Origin: Anaeromonas frigoriresistens | GTDB taxonomy: Bacteria > Bacillota > Clostridia > Tissierellales > SIT17 | Length of the DNA: 64,000 bases | Assembly: GCF_016820655.1 (NCBI RefSeq) | Contig: NZ_WSFT01000036.1 | Coordinates: 62,001 to 126,000 of the forward strand | Reading direction: 5' to 3' | Part shown: in pieces, positions 47,626 to 54,330 of the stretch | Layout of the letters: every line of letters starts with the position of its first letter | Numbering within the stretch: position 1 is the first letter of the stretch | Position numbers and translations under genes: made by a program | The notes under the pieces: generated by a model | The model's input: only the letters and a program-made list of their open reading frames with translations | What the model was told of the DNA's origin: nothing | Databases searched by the model: none

Positions 47626-49434
47626 TTGCAGGAGCCAAAAGATATATATATAAGAAGAAAAGAAAAATACTCTATATTATCAGAAATAATCCATAGAACT
47701 ATGAATATGGTTAGTTTACTAAGATTAGTAACAGCGATATCGATTTTCATTGTATTTATATTTTTGTCTAGAGATATGAGAGATGGAGTTATATGGGGGG
47801 TTACAGGAGTATTATCTGCTATATTTATATATTTGATAATATTTCATAACAAGTTAAAGCATATGTATAAATATTTTTTAATTTTCAAAGATATTAACTC
47901 TAAGTCAATAGATAGATTAGAGGGTAAATGGGTTTCTTTAAAAGATACTGGAGAAGAATTTATAAATGAAGAGCATAATTATACCTTTGACTTAGATATA
48001 TTTGGTCAAGGGTCATTATTTCAATACATAAATAATACATGTACATCCCAGGGAAGAAATAGATTAGCTTATGTTTTATCTAATCCCTTTACAACAAAAA
48101 AAGAGATTGATGAAAGACAGGATGCAATTAAAGAACTTTCTAAGAAAAGATGGTGGAGACAACGGCTTTTAGCTGAAGGAATGACTATAGAAGAAAAGAA
48201 TAGGGATAGCAAAAGTCTAATAGAGTGGGGAAAGAGTAAAAATACTTTGTATAGTAATAAATGGTTCAAAAGTATAGTCAGAATTCTTCCATTCATCACT
48301 ATTTTGTCAATACTTGCTGGGTATATTCTAGGAGTAATAACTTGGATAATACCTACCTTGTTAATCATAACTCAATACTCAATGGGATACTTCAACAGAA
48401 AAAATATAAATAAGGAGTTCAATGAAGTTTATAAATATAAAGATGAAATAAAAGTATATTGGAAAATACTTAATAACTTTGAAAAGGCTAAATTTAAATC
48501 ATCTTATTTGATTAAATTAAAAAACAGAATAAAAAATGATAAAGGATACTCTGCTATTAAACAATTTAAAGTTTTAGATAAAATAGTAGAAAACATATTA
48601 AATAGAAAGAATATTTTATTTATCCCTATCAATGTACTAACTTTATGGGATTATCACTGTTTAATAGCATTATATAAATGGAAAAACAATTCAGGGGATC
48701 TAGTAAGAGATTGGTTATATGTAGTTGGGGAAATCGAAGTTCTTTCAAGTTTATCTTCTATAGGATATGATAATCCCCAGTGGTCAATACCAGAAATAGC
48801 TGAAGAAGACTCTGTTTTCATATCAAGAGAGATAGCTCATCCTTTACTAATTAATAAGTCAGTAAGTAATAGTATAAAAATACAAGATCCTTCTAGAATA
48901 GTTTTGATAACAGGTTCTAATATGGCAGGGAAGAGTACATTTTTAAGAACTATAGGAATCAATCTTGTTTTAGCCTATAGTGGAACATATATTTGTGGTG
49001 AAAGACTCCGTTGTTCTTTGATGAACTTACAAACTTGTATGAGAATTAGCGATGATTTAGAAGCTGGGATTTCTTCTTTCTATGGAGAACTTAGAAGAAT
49101 AAGCAATATAGTGAAAGCCTCTAAGGAAGATACTCAAGTTTTCTTTTTGTTAGATGAAATATTTAAGGGGACGAACTCCTATGATAGACACCTAGGAGCT
49201 AAAATGCTATTAAAACAAATGTATAAAAATAATGCAATGGGTCTAGTTTCCACCCATGATTTAGAGTTAGGAGAACTTGAAAAAAGTACTATGGGCAATG
49301 TTTTGAATTATCATTTTCAAGAACATTATAAAGAGGGACAAATACACTTTGACTATCTCTTAAGAAGAGGGGTATCAACTACAAGAAATGCAATATATCT
49401 CATGAAAATGGCAGGAGTTGATATAGAAAATTAA
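47626..49434 (+). CDS. Membrane-anchored MutS-like ATPase
   Basis: A 602-residue protein with a MutS C-terminal ATPase domain but no mismatch-recognition domain. Two helices lie near residues 30-70 and one or two more near 215-250. MutS-core-like helices follow, then Walker A TGSNMAGKST near 428, and FFLLDEIFKGTNSYDRHLGA (Walker B) near 505, with STHDLELGELEK later. Such 'MutS-related' proteins are distinct from repair MutS and have no settled role. The start is TTG 12 bases after GAGGAGA. Repair function is not implied. Confidence 0.8.
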   Translation: MQEPKDIYIRRKEKYSILSEIIHRTMNMVSLLRLVTAISIFIVFIFLSRDMRDGVIWGVTGVLSAIFIYLIIFHNKLKHMYKYFLIFKDINSKSIDRLEGKWVSLKDTGEEFINEEHNYTFDLDIFGQGSLFQYINNTCTSQGRNRLAYVLSNPFTTKKEIDERQDAIKELSKKRWWRQRLLAEGMTIEEKNRDSKSLIEWGKSKNTLYSNKWFKSIVRILPFITILSILAGYILGVITWIIPTLLIITQYSMGYFNRKNINKEFNEVYKYKDEIKVYWKILNNFEKAKFKSSYLIKLKNRIKNDKGYSAIKQFKVLDKIVENILNRKNILFIPINVLTLWDYHCLIALYKWKNNSGDLVRDWLYVVGEIEVLSSLSSIGYDNPQWSIPEIAEEDSVFISREIAHPLLINKSVSNSIKIQDPSRIVLITGSNMAGKSTFLRTIGINLVLAYSGTYICGERLRCSLMNLQTCMRISDDLEAGISSFYGELRRISNIVKASKEDTQVFFLLDEIFKGTNSYDRHLGAKMLLKQMYKNNAMGLVSTHDLELGELEKSTMGNVLNYHFQEHYKEGQIHFDYLLRRGVSTTRNAIYLMKMAGVDIEN

Positions 49435-49515: not shown

Positions 49516-50880
49516 ATGAATGATATAATATTAATCATTTTAAATATATTAGTATTTTCAGGTCTAATATATGGATTGTTTATGATGCAAAAGAAACATA
49601 TATCCTTCACCAAAAGGGTATTGTTAGCTCTAGTAGGGGGAATTATTTTTGGAGGTATTCTACAATTAATTTATGGTTCAGGTTCAAATGTTGTTACGGA
49701 ATCCAATACATGGATTTCTATAGTAGGATCTGCCTATGTTAGGTTATTAAAAATGATAGTAATTCCACTAATATTTGTAGCTATAACTAGTGCAGTAATA
49801 AATCAAGACTCAAAAAATCTTGGTAAAATGGCTGGCATAATTATATTAGTATTAGTTCTAACTACAGCTATATCAGCAGCAGTAGGTGCGGGAACAGCTA
49901 GTATCTTTAATTTAACAGCCGAAGGGTTGCAACAGGGACAAGATGAAATTGCAGCTGGAGAAAGATTAGAAGAAAGGTTAGGAGAATTTCAACAACAAAG
50001 TATTCCTGACCAAATAGTAGGGATTATTCCAACTAATCCATTTTACTCTATGACGGGACAAGGTAGTTCGTCTACATTATCAGTAGTTGTATTTGCTGCT
50101 ATTATAGCGATAGCTACAATAGGACTTAGAAGAAAAAAACCAGAATCAGCAGAACACTTTGCTAAAATAATTAAGACATTGCATGATGTAGTTATGAGAA
50201 TGGTAACTCTAATATTAAGACTAACTCCTTATGGAGTATTAGCTCTTATGACTAAAGTGATGTCAACAAGTAATTTTGAGGAAATATATAGATTATTAAA
50301 GTTCGTATTAGCATCCTATGTGGCTCTAATTTTAATGATGATTATTCACTTTATAATATTAGCTATATTTGGATTAAATCCTATGAAGTTTATTATGAAA
50401 TCAGCCCCAGTTCTTGCCTTTGCCTTTACTTCAAGAACAAGTGCAGGAGCTTTGCCATTAAATATTGAGACTCAAATTGATAAACTAGGAGTTTCAGAGG
50501 GACATGCTAACCTATCAGCTTCATTAGGAACTAGTATTGGACAAAATGGATGTGCCGGTATTTATCCTGCTATGTTAGCCATTATGATAGCACCGACTAT
50601 AGGAATAAATCCATTAGCTCCAGCATTTTTAATAAAATTAATTATAGTAACAGCATTAAGTTCCTTTGGTATTGCAGGAGTTGGTGGTGGTGCTACTTTT
50701 GCAGCTTTAATAGTTTTATCTACAATGGGACTTCCAGTAGGATTAGTAGGTTTACTAATAGCTATAGAACCATTAATTGATATGGGTAGAACAGCTGTAA
50801 ATGTAAGTGGATCAATGGTGTCAGGCTTAATTTCAAGTAAGATAATGAATAAGATTAATACAGAAGTTTATAATAAATAA
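49516..50880 (+). CDS. tcyP: Sodium:dicarboxylate-family symporter, L-cystine transporter TcyP-type
   Basis: A 454-residue DAACS transporter with about eight helices plus re-entrant loops. Marks include SAYVRLLKMIVIPLIFVAITSAVINQ near 75, SRTSAGALPLNIETQID near 308 (the serine-rich loop), and GIAGVGGGATFAALIVLSTMGLP near 395. Overall sequence resembles TcyP of Bacillus rather than GltP or DctA. A hydrophilic insert with QQGQDEIAAGERLEERLGEFQQQ near 135-165 is typical of TcyP. A strong terminator begins within its stop codon. Substrate is by family similarity. Confidence 0.82.
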   Translation: MNDIILIILNILVFSGLIYGLFMMQKKHISFTKRVLLALVGGIIFGGILQLIYGSGSNVVTESNTWISIVGSAYVRLLKMIVIPLIFVAITSAVINQDSKNLGKMAGIIILVLVLTTAISAAVGAGTASIFNLTAEGLQQGQDEIAAGERLEERLGEFQQQSIPDQIVGIIPTNPFYSMTGQGSSSTLSVVVFAAIIAIATIGLRRKKPESAEHFAKIIKTLHDVVMRMVTLILRLTPYGVLALMTKVMSTSNFEEIYRLLKFVLASYVALILMMIIHFIILAIFGLNPMKFIMKSAPVLAFAFTSRTSAGALPLNIETQIDKLGVSEGHANLSASLGTSIGQNGCAGIYPAMLAIMIAPTIGINPLAPAFLIKLIIVTALSSFGIAGVGGGATFAALIVLSTMGLPVGLVGLLIAIEPLIDMGRTAVNVSGSMVSGLISSKIMNKINTEVYNK

Positions 50881-50910
50881 AAAGGAAGACCCTAGGGTCT
50901 TCCTTTTTAG
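50879..50910 (+). terminator. Terminator after the tcyP-type gene
   Basis: AAGGAAGACC, a short CTAG centre, and GGTCTTCCTT, with A residues before and TTTTT after. It is almost identical to the hairpin at 54303-54330, on the other side of the peptide/ABC block, with a compensatory base-pair change. Confidence 0.9.
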
Positions 50911-51113
50911 GTGTAAAATTGAAAGATATTTTTCTATAGTTACAGATTCTCTTTGGAATAAATATATATATATAAACTGTGCTAAATTATATATATTATT
51001 AAGTTATGATTTGAAGTTGAATAGATAATAGAGCTGGAATTATTATGTGGTTAAATAGCATCCATTATAATTTTCTTCAAATATAGACAGAGCACCAGAA
51101 TATTGTCGAACGA

Positions 51114-51177
51114 TAAATTTGATAAATAAATTTACCTGTGATATAATTTTGATAAATAAATTTACTAATATTATAAT
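51114..51177 (+). promoter_or_regulatory. Two tandem, nearly identical promoters with an operator-like repeat
   Basis: Promoter 1: TTGATA 51119-51124, 17 bases, TATAAT 51142-51147. Promoter 2: TTGATA 51149-51154, 17 bases, TATAAT 51172-51177. Both share the block TTTGATAAATAAATTTAC at a 30-bp offset, and the first also sits in an inverted repeat TAAATTT-N7-AAATTTA (51114-51134) overlapping the -35, which could be an operator. No other promoter in the window matches the consensus as well. Confidence 0.7.
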
Positions 51178-51435
51178 GATAAAGGAATATATTGTTTGGA
51201 CATTAAATAAAATTAAATAAAAATAATTTATTATAAATTAATCGAGCGATAAAGGATAAGTGTTTCATGCCACTTATTATTTAAATGTTCTATCATTGAT
51301 TGAAATAAGGCCATTATATAAGTGACATAGTTAATTTTAGACTATAAGGATAGTAAAATAATAAATAAATTTTTAAAATAACTTATACAAAGTACTTATT
51401 TAGAAGAAATACTTAAAGGATTTGACTGCTGGGAC

Positions 51436-51463
51436 ATTAAAGGTAGCTCGAGATACCTTTAAT
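51436..51463. repeat. Near-perfect 28-bp palindrome
   Basis: ATTAAAGGTAGCTC is followed directly by its reverse complement with one mismatch (GAGATACCTTTAAT), centred on CTCGAG. No T tract follows, so it looks more like a dimeric-protein site or a cruciform/RNA hairpin than a terminator. Confidence 0.6.
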
Positions 51464-51810
51464 ATAGAAACTATTATAATAACATAGAAAGATAAGCGTA
51501 ATCTCTAATGTATCTGATGAAATAGCTTTAAATATTTCTGAATATTTCGATAATTAAGTAATGCGTTTTAATACGCTAATATTCTTGATGTTATTTAATA
51601 GTAAAACATAAAATTCATTTATTGGACATGCTACTATTTTATAGCTAATTTATTATTACCAATAAAATTACATCTAGGTAGATTTGTAGTCCTGAGGGAA
51701 TTATTCCTAAAGGATAGGTAAAATGGTTATTTTCTCAAATAAAAAACGTATCATTAAAATGTGAGCATAATATGTTATTTTAATAAGTTGAACAAAAATA
51801 AGGAGTGGTG

Positions 51811-51831
51811 TCAAAAAACAACCTTTTTTGA
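51811..51831 (+). other. Hairpin just upstream of the secreted-peptide gene
   Basis: TCAAAAAA and TTTTTTGA form an 8-bp A/T stem around CAACC. It could weakly end transcription or control translation, 30 bases before the start codon; it is not GC-rich enough for a normal terminator. Confidence 0.4.
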
Positions 51832-51860
51832 GACTACGTGTGAAGAAAGGTAGGATTTAA

Positions 51861-52256
51861 ATGAAAAGAAAAAAATATGTTGCTTTTTTAATTGCCTTTG
51901 TTATGTGTTTAATTACTTTAATGCCAGCCGCTGCATCTGCAGATACTTCTAGTACATGGAGCACAAGAGGAGTTAAACATCTTGCTTGGACGAAAAATTA
52001 TATATGGTGGTCTTATGATTCATCTAAGATTATAGCTTCTGATACAGACCAACAACGTAGCGGTTTATTTGTTATAAATAGAGGCATTACAAAATTAGGG
52101 TCACAATCTACAAGCACTAAGTGGGTTTTTAACTGTAAGAATGAATTTTTAGCAGGTGCAGAATTAGGTGGAGTAACTCTTGGATGGGCACAAACTATTA
52201 TTGATCAAGCTAGAGTTTATGTGTCCGGTAATGGCTACTGGAGTTTTGATATTTAG
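51861..52256 (+). CDS. Secreted Trp-rich peptide, bacteriocin-like, possibly distantly lactococcin 972-like
   Basis: A 131-residue precursor. A signal peptide (MKRKK, hydrophobic core, then PAAASA) ends at about residue 27 (A-S-A before Asp28), leaving a mature protein of about 104 residues with seven Trp, one Cys (92) and no helix-forming stretch long enough for a membrane. It begins STWSTRGVKHLAW and ends YVSGNGYWSFDI. The TW-x3-G start, Trp/Tyr content and beta-type pattern recall lactococcin 972 proteins, as does the following ABC pair, but no diagnostic motif is complete. The start has AAAGGTAGGA. Its function is not known. Confidence 0.6.
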   Translation: MKRKKYVAFLIAFVMCLITLMPAAASADTSSTWSTRGVKHLAWTKNYIWWSYDSSKIIASDTDQQRSGLFVINRGITKLGSQSTSTKWVFNCKNEFLAGAELGGVTLGWAQTIIDQARVYVSGNGYWSFDI

Positions 52257-52337
52257 TTTTTATTTGTAAAATAATCAATTAGATACATTAGTAGATTAAT
52301 AAACTATTACATTTTATTGAAAAGACATATTTAAAAA

Positions 52338-52378
52338 CCCATTCACTTTTAGACAATGGATATCTAGAAGTGAATGGG
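52338..52378 (+). other. Strong intercistronic hairpin between the peptide gene and the ABC genes
   Basis: CCCATTCACTT and AAGTGAATGGG form an 11-bp perfect stem, extended inwards by a G-T mismatch and TAGA/TCTA. There is no T tract after it, so it is not a standard terminator. It could stabilise the 3' end of the peptide message or lower expression of the transporter genes. Confidence 0.6.
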
Positions 52379-52402
52379 ATAAATTATAAAGGAGATTGAT
52401 TT

Positions 52403-53071
52403 ATGATACAATGTACTAATTTTTCTAAGAGTTATTCAAATAAATGCATAATAGAGAAATCAAGTTTTGAAATAAGGGAGAATAAGATTTCATTTTTAAT
52501 GGGACCTAATGGTTCGGGAAAGACAACACTTATCAAATGTATGATGGAAATGGAAAAATATAATGGTGATTTTATTTTTGAGGGTAAAAATATAAGTCAG
52601 ATACGAGATAAGTGTATGGTTCTTTGGGATGATTGTCCTTTTTATATGAATCTTAATGGAATAAAAAATCTAATAATCTTTGGTGAAAATAAAAAATCTA
52701 AAAATGAAATTAAAGAAATCGCATCTAATTACTTAGATTATGGATTACTAAGAAGAAAAGTAAAGACATATTCTTATGGACAGAAAAAAAAATTAGCCTT
52801 AGTATTGGTGGAAATTTTAGAACCTAAGTATTTGATTATGGATGAAATATCAAATGGATTAGACTATGAGATGATAAGAATATTAAAAAAAATTATTAAA
52901 AGTTGGTCGAAGGATATGACTATTTTACTTACAGGTCATCAATTTAGTTTTTACAATGATATAGTAGATGATTTGTTTGTGTTTAAAAATAAACAGATAA
53001 CATTACTAAAAGAGAATTTTTCTGACAGTGGTGAAAAGTTGGAGGATGTATATGATGAAGAAATATGTTAA
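52403..53071 (+). CDS. ABC transporter ATP-binding protein (peptide/immunity-type)
   Basis: A 222-residue ABC ATPase. Walker A is MGPNGSGKTT near 34, the signature reads YSYGQKKKLALVL near 115, Walker B is YLIMDEISNGLDYE near 142, and the H-loop region is LLTGHQFSFY. The Q-loop glutamine position reads LWDDCPF, so the usual Gln is missing. It is probably coupled to the membrane protein encoded next, with which it overlaps by about 20 bases. In bacteriocin loci such pairs give export or self-protection; which one applies here is unknown. Confidence 0.85.
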   Translation: MIQCTNFSKSYSNKCIIEKSSFEIRENKISFLMGPNGSGKTTLIKCMMEMEKYNGDFIFEGKNISQIRDKCMVLWDDCPFYMNLNGIKNLIIFGENKKSKNEIKEIASNYLDYGLLRRKVKTYSYGQKKKLALVLVEILEPKYLIMDEISNGLDYEMIRILKKIIKSWSKDMTILLTGHQFSFYNDIVDDLFVFKNKQITLLKENFSDSGEKLEDVYDEEIC

Positions 53072-53987
53072 ACAAGAATTAAGGTGGGGAATTAATTCAA
53101 AGATTTATTACATAGTCGCAATTTTTTTAAGTTTATTATTTGTATTAACGTTATTTTTAAATTATAGTGCGGTTATTAATACATATGATAGCTATCTTAA
53201 AACTGAGAATTATTATGTGGAAAATGGACTTGATATTGAAAAAGATTTAGCTGGTGAGTATAACTTGGAAGAGAATGAAAATGGAGGGACAGTTTCTAAT
53301 CCTATTTTGTATTACAAAGATACTGTAAGTAGGCATATTTATGCAGCAAGTCCTAAATATATGTTGTCACAACTTTTAGAGTCTTCAATTTTACTTTTTC
53401 CCTTAGTATTTGGAATTTTGGGACTGTTAGTTGCTAGCACTGACTTTAAGTATAAAACGATTAAGCTTAAGACAGTAAGAATGGACAGGTCTACTCTTGG
53501 AATTGTAAAACAGTTATCAATAGTATTTAGTAGTTTTATTATTTTAGTAATAACATTAATTATTTCTTATCTTATAGGATGGATTATGTACATTAAATTA
53601 TCGAGTAGTATACCAATTGAAGAATTTAATGTAGGGACATTCAATGCAAGCTCATTAATTATAGTAAAATTCATTTTTGCATATATAATTGCTTTGATTT
53701 TCGCAGAAATTGGTTATACTTTAGGTATGATATTTAAGAATTCAATTATAGGAATGATTGTAATTATTGTATATATATATATATTGCCTAATCTTGGTAG
53801 GTTTGATTTAAAAAATTCCTATTTTTACTTTGCTAGAAAGGTTTTTGATTTTTATGGTGTGGTTTCTGTCCAATCTCCTAAAGAAACTTCACTTATAGTA
53901 TCTACACTGATTATATTATCTGTTATTATCATATCATTTATTGCAAATATGTTTATCATAGTAAAACGTAGTTCATTTGAGAGTTGA
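53052..53987 (+). CDS. ABC transporter permease partner
   Basis: A 311-residue membrane protein with about six helices (near 10-35, 105-130, 155-180, 205-230, 235-252 and 282-305). After helix 1 there is an extracellular loop of about 75 residues containing ENYYVENGLDIEKDLAGEY and DTVSRHIYAASPKYMLS. The layout is that of ABC-2-type permeases. I start at ATG 53052, six bases after GGAGG; neighbouring ATGs at 53046 and 53055 are possible. It shares an operon with the ATPase gene. Confidence 0.8.
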   Translation: MMKKYVKQELRWGINSKIYYIVAIFLSLLFVLTLFLNYSAVINTYDSYLKTENYYVENGLDIEKDLAGEYNLEENENGGTVSNPILYYKDTVSRHIYAASPKYMLSQLLESSILLFPLVFGILGLLVASTDFKYKTIKLKTVRMDRSTLGIVKQLSIVFSSFIILVITLIISYLIGWIMYIKLSSSIPIEEFNVGTFNASSLIIVKFIFAYIIALIFAEIGYTLGMIFKNSIIGMIVIIVYIYILPNLGRFDLKNSYFYFARKVFDFYGVVSVQSPKETSLIVSTLIILSVIIISFIANMFIIVKRSSFES

Positions 53988-54073
53988 TAGATACCTTTTA
54001 ATTAAAATTAATAGAATCTCATGTTATTGAGAAAGGTATATGTTTTATAAAATTGAAGTTTGGAGGAGAAAGA

Positions 54074-54241
54074 ATGATAGAGAATAAATTGAAAGTTATT
54101 TTGGTTTGTTTTTTTATATTGATTGCATTAATAATACTATTAACAAAGGTATCTTCCTTTTTTTATAAAAATAATATAAATTATGGCTCATTGAGACTTG
54201 AGAAAGTAAATCATTCACTAGAATTGGTTGTGGGTGATTAA
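54074..54241 (+). CDS. Single-helix membrane peptide of the secreted-peptide locus
   Basis: A 55-residue protein starting MIENKLKVILVCFFILIALIILL, with one membrane helix (about 7-26) and a charged, outward or cytoplasmic tail. The ATG follows GGAGGAG at good spacing. No family is recognised. It is the last gene before the terminator, in the position of small immunity or accessory proteins in bacteriocin operons; this role is inferred only. Confidence 0.55.
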   Translation: MIENKLKVILVCFFILIALIILLTKVSSFFYKNNINYGSLRLEKVNHSLELVVGD

Positions 54242-54302
54242 CTCAAAAAAAATCTTTGAATAGCATTTCTGGATTAAGGTAAAGTTATTTCAATCTCTAA
54301 AT

Positions 54303-54330
54303 AAAAAGGAAGACTCTAAGGTCTTCCTTA
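54303..54330 (-). terminator. Terminator of the YfmM-like ABC-F gene
   Basis: AAGGAAGACT, CTA, AGGTCTTCCTT form a stem; on the minus strand a TTTTTATTT tract follows, right after the stop codon of the ABC-F gene. Read from the plus strand it also lies behind the 55-residue gene. It differs from the hairpin at 50879-50910 by two positions that keep the pairing. Confidence 0.85.

Follow-up and report, generated by a model that had tools for sequence, protein, structure and literature searches.

What is encoded by a compact group of four genes in Anaeromonas frigoriresistens, and what could its products do for the cell? The group lies in a 64,000-nt stretch of contig NZ_WSFT01000036.1, hereafter called the window, for which an earlier note had proposed an antibacterial protein with a transporter giving self-protection. 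Our analysis makes it likely that the locus encodes a Sec-secreted bacteriocin-like protein together with an ABC pump that would protect the producer, both carried on a mobile cassette; the antibacterial activity is what we infer from the features described below. The cassette is real, it recurs on mobile carriers, and it has no description in the libraries that were searched.

The open reading frames confirmed the proposed set of a precursor, an ABC ATPase, a permease and a 55-aa protein with one helix, all on one strand (Table 1). The start of the permease was placed at the ATG at 53055 rather than at the GTG at 53028, because the related proteins align from this ATG. Beyond the four genes, no ORF of at least 40 aa starting with ATG, GTG or TTG was found between positions 50881 and 54297, and therefore no regulator or sensor was seen there. 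In the 955-bp stretch 5′ of the peptide gene, ORFs reach at most 64 codons when read from stop to stop, and the stretch has no second copy in the genome. This ORF-poor stretch includes, at 51113–51172, two 30-nt copies that are 80% identical, each with a TTGATA-17-TATAAT promoter-like match; such sites occur in the region at chance level (30 found versus 28.5 expected). An Rfam scan of the locus returned nothing at the gathering score, and no tRNAs were found between 40000 and 64000. The four flanking genes that were identified encode MutS-like, symporter, ABC-F and antiporter proteins. The MutS-family gene (47626–49434) shares only 57% identity with the genes at the same site in two congeners, as compared with 80–86% for three neighboring genes.

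Table 1. Features of the cassette and of its borders (positions in the window)
Feature	Position	Strand	Remarks
Secreted precursor, 131 aa	51861..52256	+	signal peptide about residues 1–27 (51861–51941), by inspection; mature part 104 aa (51942–52253)
ABC transporter ATPase, 222 aa	52403..53071	+	PF00005, E 1.2e-18; 68–72% identical in three other lineages
ABC-2-like permease, 310 aa, 6 hydrophobic helices	53055..53987	+	first 17 nt lie within the ATPase gene
55-aa protein, one hydrophobic helix	54074..54241	+	in 4 of 6 distinct loci; ATG 54074 after GGAGG
RNA hairpin, strong, 16 bp, no U-run	52338..52378	+	between the peptide and ATPase genes
32-nt terminator-type hairpin, left copy	50874..50905	.	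borders the segment that congeners lack
32-nt terminator-type hairpin, right copy	54298..54329	.	94% identical to the left copy
3.4-kb segment missing in two other genomes of the genus	50906..54297	+	flanking genes adjacent there

The N terminus of the precursor has a KRKK sequence followed by a hydrophobic stretch and by AASA before D28, and it was therefore assigned as a signal peptide by inspection. Similar N termini were recognized by eye in all six distinct precursors. The mature protein of the window has 104 residues, including seven Trp, four Tyr and one Cys, with a pI of 8.8, so that the earlier description of a seven-Trp mature part of about this length was borne out for the window. 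The number of Trp residues ranges from two to seven among the six members, and hence the seven Trp are not a trait of the family. The peptide of the window had no significant match in Pfam (best E 0.12), NCBIfam (0.097), PHROGs, PADLOC or PDB sequences, and the six members searched singly reached at best 0.039 in Pfam and 0.014 in NCBIfam, with scores well short of the cut-offs. The six-member profile gave a best E of 0.18 against PDB sequences, and no significant match to known bacteriocin families was obtained in Pfam, NCBIfam or by profile comparison. These HMM searches agree with the suggestion that the peptide lacks a complete known motif, as it could be placed in no family of the libraries that were searched. 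Two structure models of the peptide, each built from two sequences, were all-beta proteins sharing six main strands, at low confidence (pLDDT 49.5 and 45.3), and fold searches with the 49.5-pLDDT model returned no match with E ≤0.001 or Z ≥5. On the two Lactococcus plasmids that carry it, the peptide is annotated merely as a hypothetical protein.

As judged from its sequence, the ATPase of the window is an ordinary ABC ATPase. Among the best 25 of its 186 NCBIfam matches, the top one was an ABC-F model (117.5 bits, below cut-off), and the best transporter model was that of a lantibiotic-protection ATPase (105.9 bits versus a cut-off of 309.75). The permease has, as had been noted, a long loop, in which about 68 residues separate its first two hydrophobic helices. 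It gave no significant match in Pfam, NCBIfam, PHROGs or PADLOC; one of the six permease members matched PF12730 (ABC2_membrane_4; E 2e-4) and one a sulfate-transporter model (0.0022). The small protein of the window had weak matches only, none of them significant, the best being 0.017 in PHROGs and 0.025 in Pfam. Its gene is present in the window and in loci L015, L026 and L027, and no counterpart was seen in the ORF lists of genome G386 or of plasmid pLLUC7005E. When the window was compared with the same three loci, which we call its near members, the identity was 68–72% for the ATPase, 51–56% for the permease, 46–54% for the mature peptide and 34–41% for the small protein. Hence, the peptide diverged faster than the ATPase and about equally to the permease.

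Seven loci, that of the window included, contain the peptide, and six of them are distinct, as the two Lactococcus plasmids are near-identical there; the others are a Bacillus chungangensis prophage and genomes G386, G793 and G887, which lie outside the class of the window. In every one of the seven loci, the ABC genes come immediately 3′ of the peptide gene on the same strand, ATPase first and permease second, and the frames of the two genes overlap in six loci, and in G386 only if an upstream start is used. The earlier note had staked its reading in advance on a recurring link between the peptide and the ABC pair, and such a link is present in every peptide locus. A scan of genome contigs with the permease identified one relative, in B. 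chungangensis DSM 23837 (52% identity), with four genes in the same order, while the same scan with the window peptide gave no match. A search of the phylum with the window peptide led to G386 (29% identity over residues 25–130, E 6.7e-4), where the peptide, ATPase and permease are all present, and with the G386 peptide as query, plasmid sequences gave both Lactococcus plasmids (E 6e-6 and 1e-5), each with the same three genes. Plasmid searches with the peptides of the window, L015 and L027, and with the L015 permease, gave no match. A profile search in the order of G386 added G887 (E 1e-34) and G793 (E 7e-29), with four genes each. A profile built from the window peptide and those of its three near members placed the G386 peptide at the top of 548 six-frame stretches (E 1e-7) and the pLLUC7005E peptide at the top of 159 (2.7e-5). 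In leave-one-out profiles, the peptide was the top match in each of the six loci among six-frame stretches of at least 20 aa (E 3.7e-6 to 2e-41). Because both kinds of profile recover the G386 and pLLUC7005E peptides, their homology does not depend on a single alignment.

The cassette is rare, and it is carried on mobile elements, namely a plasmid and a predicted prophage. In samples with one genome per species, the peptide was found only in the window's own genome among 249 of its order (two weak matches dropped), in 3 of 348 genomes of the order of G386, G386 among them (four-member profile, one match dropped), and in 2 of 329 genomes of the phylum with the six-member profile, which were the already known own genome and G386 (one match dropped). 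The discarded matches were of several kinds. Among 60 relatives, G041 matched besides the own genome; in the own order (3 of 249 matched), G041 matched at 23% identity and E 0.0013, and the match in G133 covered 37 residues within a 490-aa frame. The match in G862 (4 of 348 in the order of G386) lay inside a helicase-like gene, and that in G310 (3 of 329 in the phylum) was antisense to an FtsX-like gene and contained a stop. The phylum search with the peptide matched 9 of 398 genomes, from which the own genome and G386 were kept; among the seven dropped, the ORFs were read at locus L012 alone, and the other six were set aside by score and coverage. With the permease, G060 in the own order (2 of 249, counting the own genome; E 1.2e-5) proved to be a generic ABC-2 pump. 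The six-member permease profile matched 49 of 234 genomes of the order of G386 at 1e-6, with clear relatives in G793, G386, G847, G766 and a fragment in G855 (E ≤2.5e-23), the next match being at 2e-13. From the weaker set, G797 was a generic pump by its ORFs. The peptide profile found nothing significant in loci L044–L052, L073 and L074.

The B. chungangensis copy is located 3′ of genes for a BhlA holin (PF10960, 1.6e-10) and a glucosaminidase-amidase lysin, with tail-like genes, recognized by eye, further upstream. It lies within the viral contig UViG_2926488731_000003 of IMG/VR, a predicted prophage, which was the only contig matched in the viral-contig scans (by three of seven, the other four giving nothing). 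Plasmid pLLUC7005E is a 6-kb mobilizable plasmid with seven annotated genes, three of which are the peptide, ATPase and permease genes. Genomes G386, G793 and G887 belong to the same phylum as the window, a label distinct from "same class", and yet the ATPases of the three near members are as much as 68–72% identical to that of the window. In the window itself, the 3.4-kb segment is bracketed by the two 32-nt hairpins between convergent flanking genes. In congeners G001 and G003, the sodium:dicarboxylate symporter and ABC-F genes, 80–86% identical to those flanking the cassette, are adjacent, the ORF ends being 42 and 74 nt apart with a single hairpin of other sequence between them, which defines an empty site; G002 was left out of this comparison, since it had no ABC-F match at the cut-off used. 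The absence from the two congeners could reflect a gain in the window or, alternatively, a loss from the congeners.

The intergenic stretch between the peptide and ATPase genes of the window is more stable than expected (z −4.6; none of 200 shuffles reached this stability). Stable folding was also found there in L015 (z −4.8), L026 (−3.4) and L018 (−5.8), while it was at chance in L027 (−0.5) and in G386 (L020; −1.0), and hence it is not kept in two of the six loci. The hairpin may possibly serve as a partial terminator or an mRNA stabilizer that favors the peptide over the pump.

Several loci contain the pump genes without a complete peptide gene. Plasmid pUCCL630E has the ABC pair, with a permease 100% identical to that of pLLUC7005E, an adjoining IS sequence and no peptide. 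In G766, a full-length ATPase-permease pair is present with no peptide detected, while G847 has an N-terminally shortened permease without the ATPase. About 73 C-terminal residues of the permease are left in G855, between the neighbors that flank the whole cassette in G386. On plasmid pLLF72C, the signal-peptide start is missing from the peptide frame, and the pump genes are full length. The retention of the pump without the peptide fits immunity genes, as had been proposed with the transporter as a means of self-protection, and is awkward for an exporter. Two of the four peptide-less cases have decayed, and therefore the pump is not essential either; such pumps could also serve unrelated tasks. 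Just 5′ of the IS fragment and the peptide-less pair of pUCCL630E there is a 94-aa, secreted-looking ORF (L021, 2732–3016), which does not match the peptide profile. G386 and G855 are of one genus, in which the cassette (L020, 8301–10514) and the permease stub (L072, 3915–4136) thus have the same neighbors.

The family to which the peptide belongs was compared with lactococcin 972, a bacteriocin that binds lipid II and blocks septum formation. It is conceivable, though unlikely, that the peptide is a highly divergent branch of the lactococcin 972 superfamily, with the same beta-sandwich fold, a lipid II-type action and a swapped ABC partner; this would be compatible with a bacteriocin role and would compete over the family alone. 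The plan of a Sec-type precursor followed by ABC genes is shared, and the six main strands predicted in both low-pLDDT models are consistent with such a fold. Additionally, one report files mediterrocin in the lactococcin 972 family at only 18% identity and describes a DUF1430 gene in its locus (PMC12345188). Against this assignment, the peptide profile and lactococcin 972 gave an hhalign probability of 0.1%, and HMM searches in both directions found nothing significant. The yardstick was two sequences only, from pBL1 and a Streptococcus plasmid homologue, which were used because a PF09683 search in 120 genomes of the order of G386 gave nothing, controls included. PF09683 was absent among the matches of the window peptide up to E 10 and of the six members up to E 1. 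The partner typical of this family is a seven-TM DUF1430 protein. In pBL1, a 648-aa DUF1430 protein (PF07242, 5.9e-22) precedes the ATPase, whereas the window permease had no Pfam match and none of the six permeases matched DUF1430 up to E 1. The gene order also differs, as it is bacteriocin, permease and ATPase for lactococcin 972. Hence, the likeness to lactococcin 972 suggested in the earlier note holds for the general architecture and not for profile similarity, the DUF1430 partner or gene order.

The constant position of the ABC genes 3′ of the peptide gene could also be explained if the pair exported or processed the peptide, which would then be a pheromone or a surface protein and no weapon. 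Some bacteriocins do rely on dedicated exporters. We consider this explanation improbable, since all six distinct precursors have signal-peptide-like N termini by eye, no peptidase domain was found among the best 25 of 35 Pfam matches of the ATPase or in the permease by Pfam, pumps exist without a detected peptide, and no regulator or sensor ORF was seen between 50881 and 54297. That the cassette is a prophage- or plasmid-borne factor for envelope modification or superinfection exclusion, as the copy adjoining lysis genes might suggest, is very improbable, because the peptide and permease have no match in PHROGs or PADLOC, three peptides and the window permease were unmatched in 50,697 phage records, and no phage genes were recognized by eye beside the window, pLLUC7005E and G386 copies.

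The simplest reading is that the cassette encodes a bacteriocin-like secreted protein and an ABC pump dedicated to immunity. Of the earlier proposal, the recurring link and the lack of a family match were supported, and the peptide-less pumps fit the self-protection role; the tie to lactococcin 972 did not extend beyond architecture. The precursor would be secreted by the general Sec route and cleaved to a protein of about 104 residues, probably all beta and rich in aromatic residues. Once outside, this protein would act, most likely at the envelope, on Gram-positive bacteria that are susceptible and probably related to the producer. In the manner of LanFEG-type pumps, the ATPase and permease would remove the protein, or a complex that it forms, from the membrane and so protect the producer. 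In one sub-clade, the one-helix protein might assist the pump as an accessory immunity factor, the hairpin would allow more peptide than pump to be made, and the cassette would move horizontally. To our knowledge, no antibacterial activity has been described for any member, and no paper on these genes was found in the open-licence literature under the plasmid and strain names, B. chungangensis, or Sec-type and beta-sandwich bacteriocins. The wider proposition is evenly poised. It holds that the secreted proteins form a bacteriocin family not described before, all beta and unmodified, which is served by a separate class of ABC-2 immunity pump and, in one clade, by the one-helix protein as helper, and that prophages, small plasmids and chromosomal islands carry the cassette from one bacterial class to another. 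Few sequence families of protein-type bacteriocins are known in Gram-positive bacteria; if the reading is true, it would provide a further one whose immunity pump is compact, and bacteriocin mining would gain a profile. The natural carriers in Lactococcus and Bacillus are easily grown, which makes it immediately testable.

Three known systems are informative for comparison. The LanFE(G) pumps, with TIGR03740 ATPases, are similar in having an ATPase-permease pair beside a secreted peptide gene; they differ in that the cassette ATPase stays far below the cut-off of that model, the cassette has one permease, and its peptide has by eye an ordinary signal peptide. No lantibiotic precursor or modification genes were recognized by eye among the ORFs between 48500 and 57500. 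The ATPase profile matched 6xjh_C over positions 3–201 of 222 (E 8.6e-29), which we take to be the phenol-soluble modulin transporter PmtCD; the substrates of PmtCD are short helical peptides without a signal sequence, and the cassette ATPase scored 78.7 against a PmtC cut-off of 375 bits. In comparison with lactococcin 972, the cassette has a 310-aa permease in place of the 648-aa DUF1430 protein and an extra one-helix gene in one clade. At the same time, lactococcin 972 (pBL1), streptococcin B and mediterrocin likewise combine a small secreted protein that has no dedicated leader with downstream ABC genes to which immunity is ascribed, and two papers indicate that immunity by these genes is mostly presumed for lactococcin 972-type loci (PMC11796350; PMC4055356). 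Lactococcin 972 also resembles the cassette in having a stable fold after the peptide gene (z −4.5 in pBL1) and in being encoded, as one copy of the cassette is, on a small mobilizable Lactococcus plasmid.
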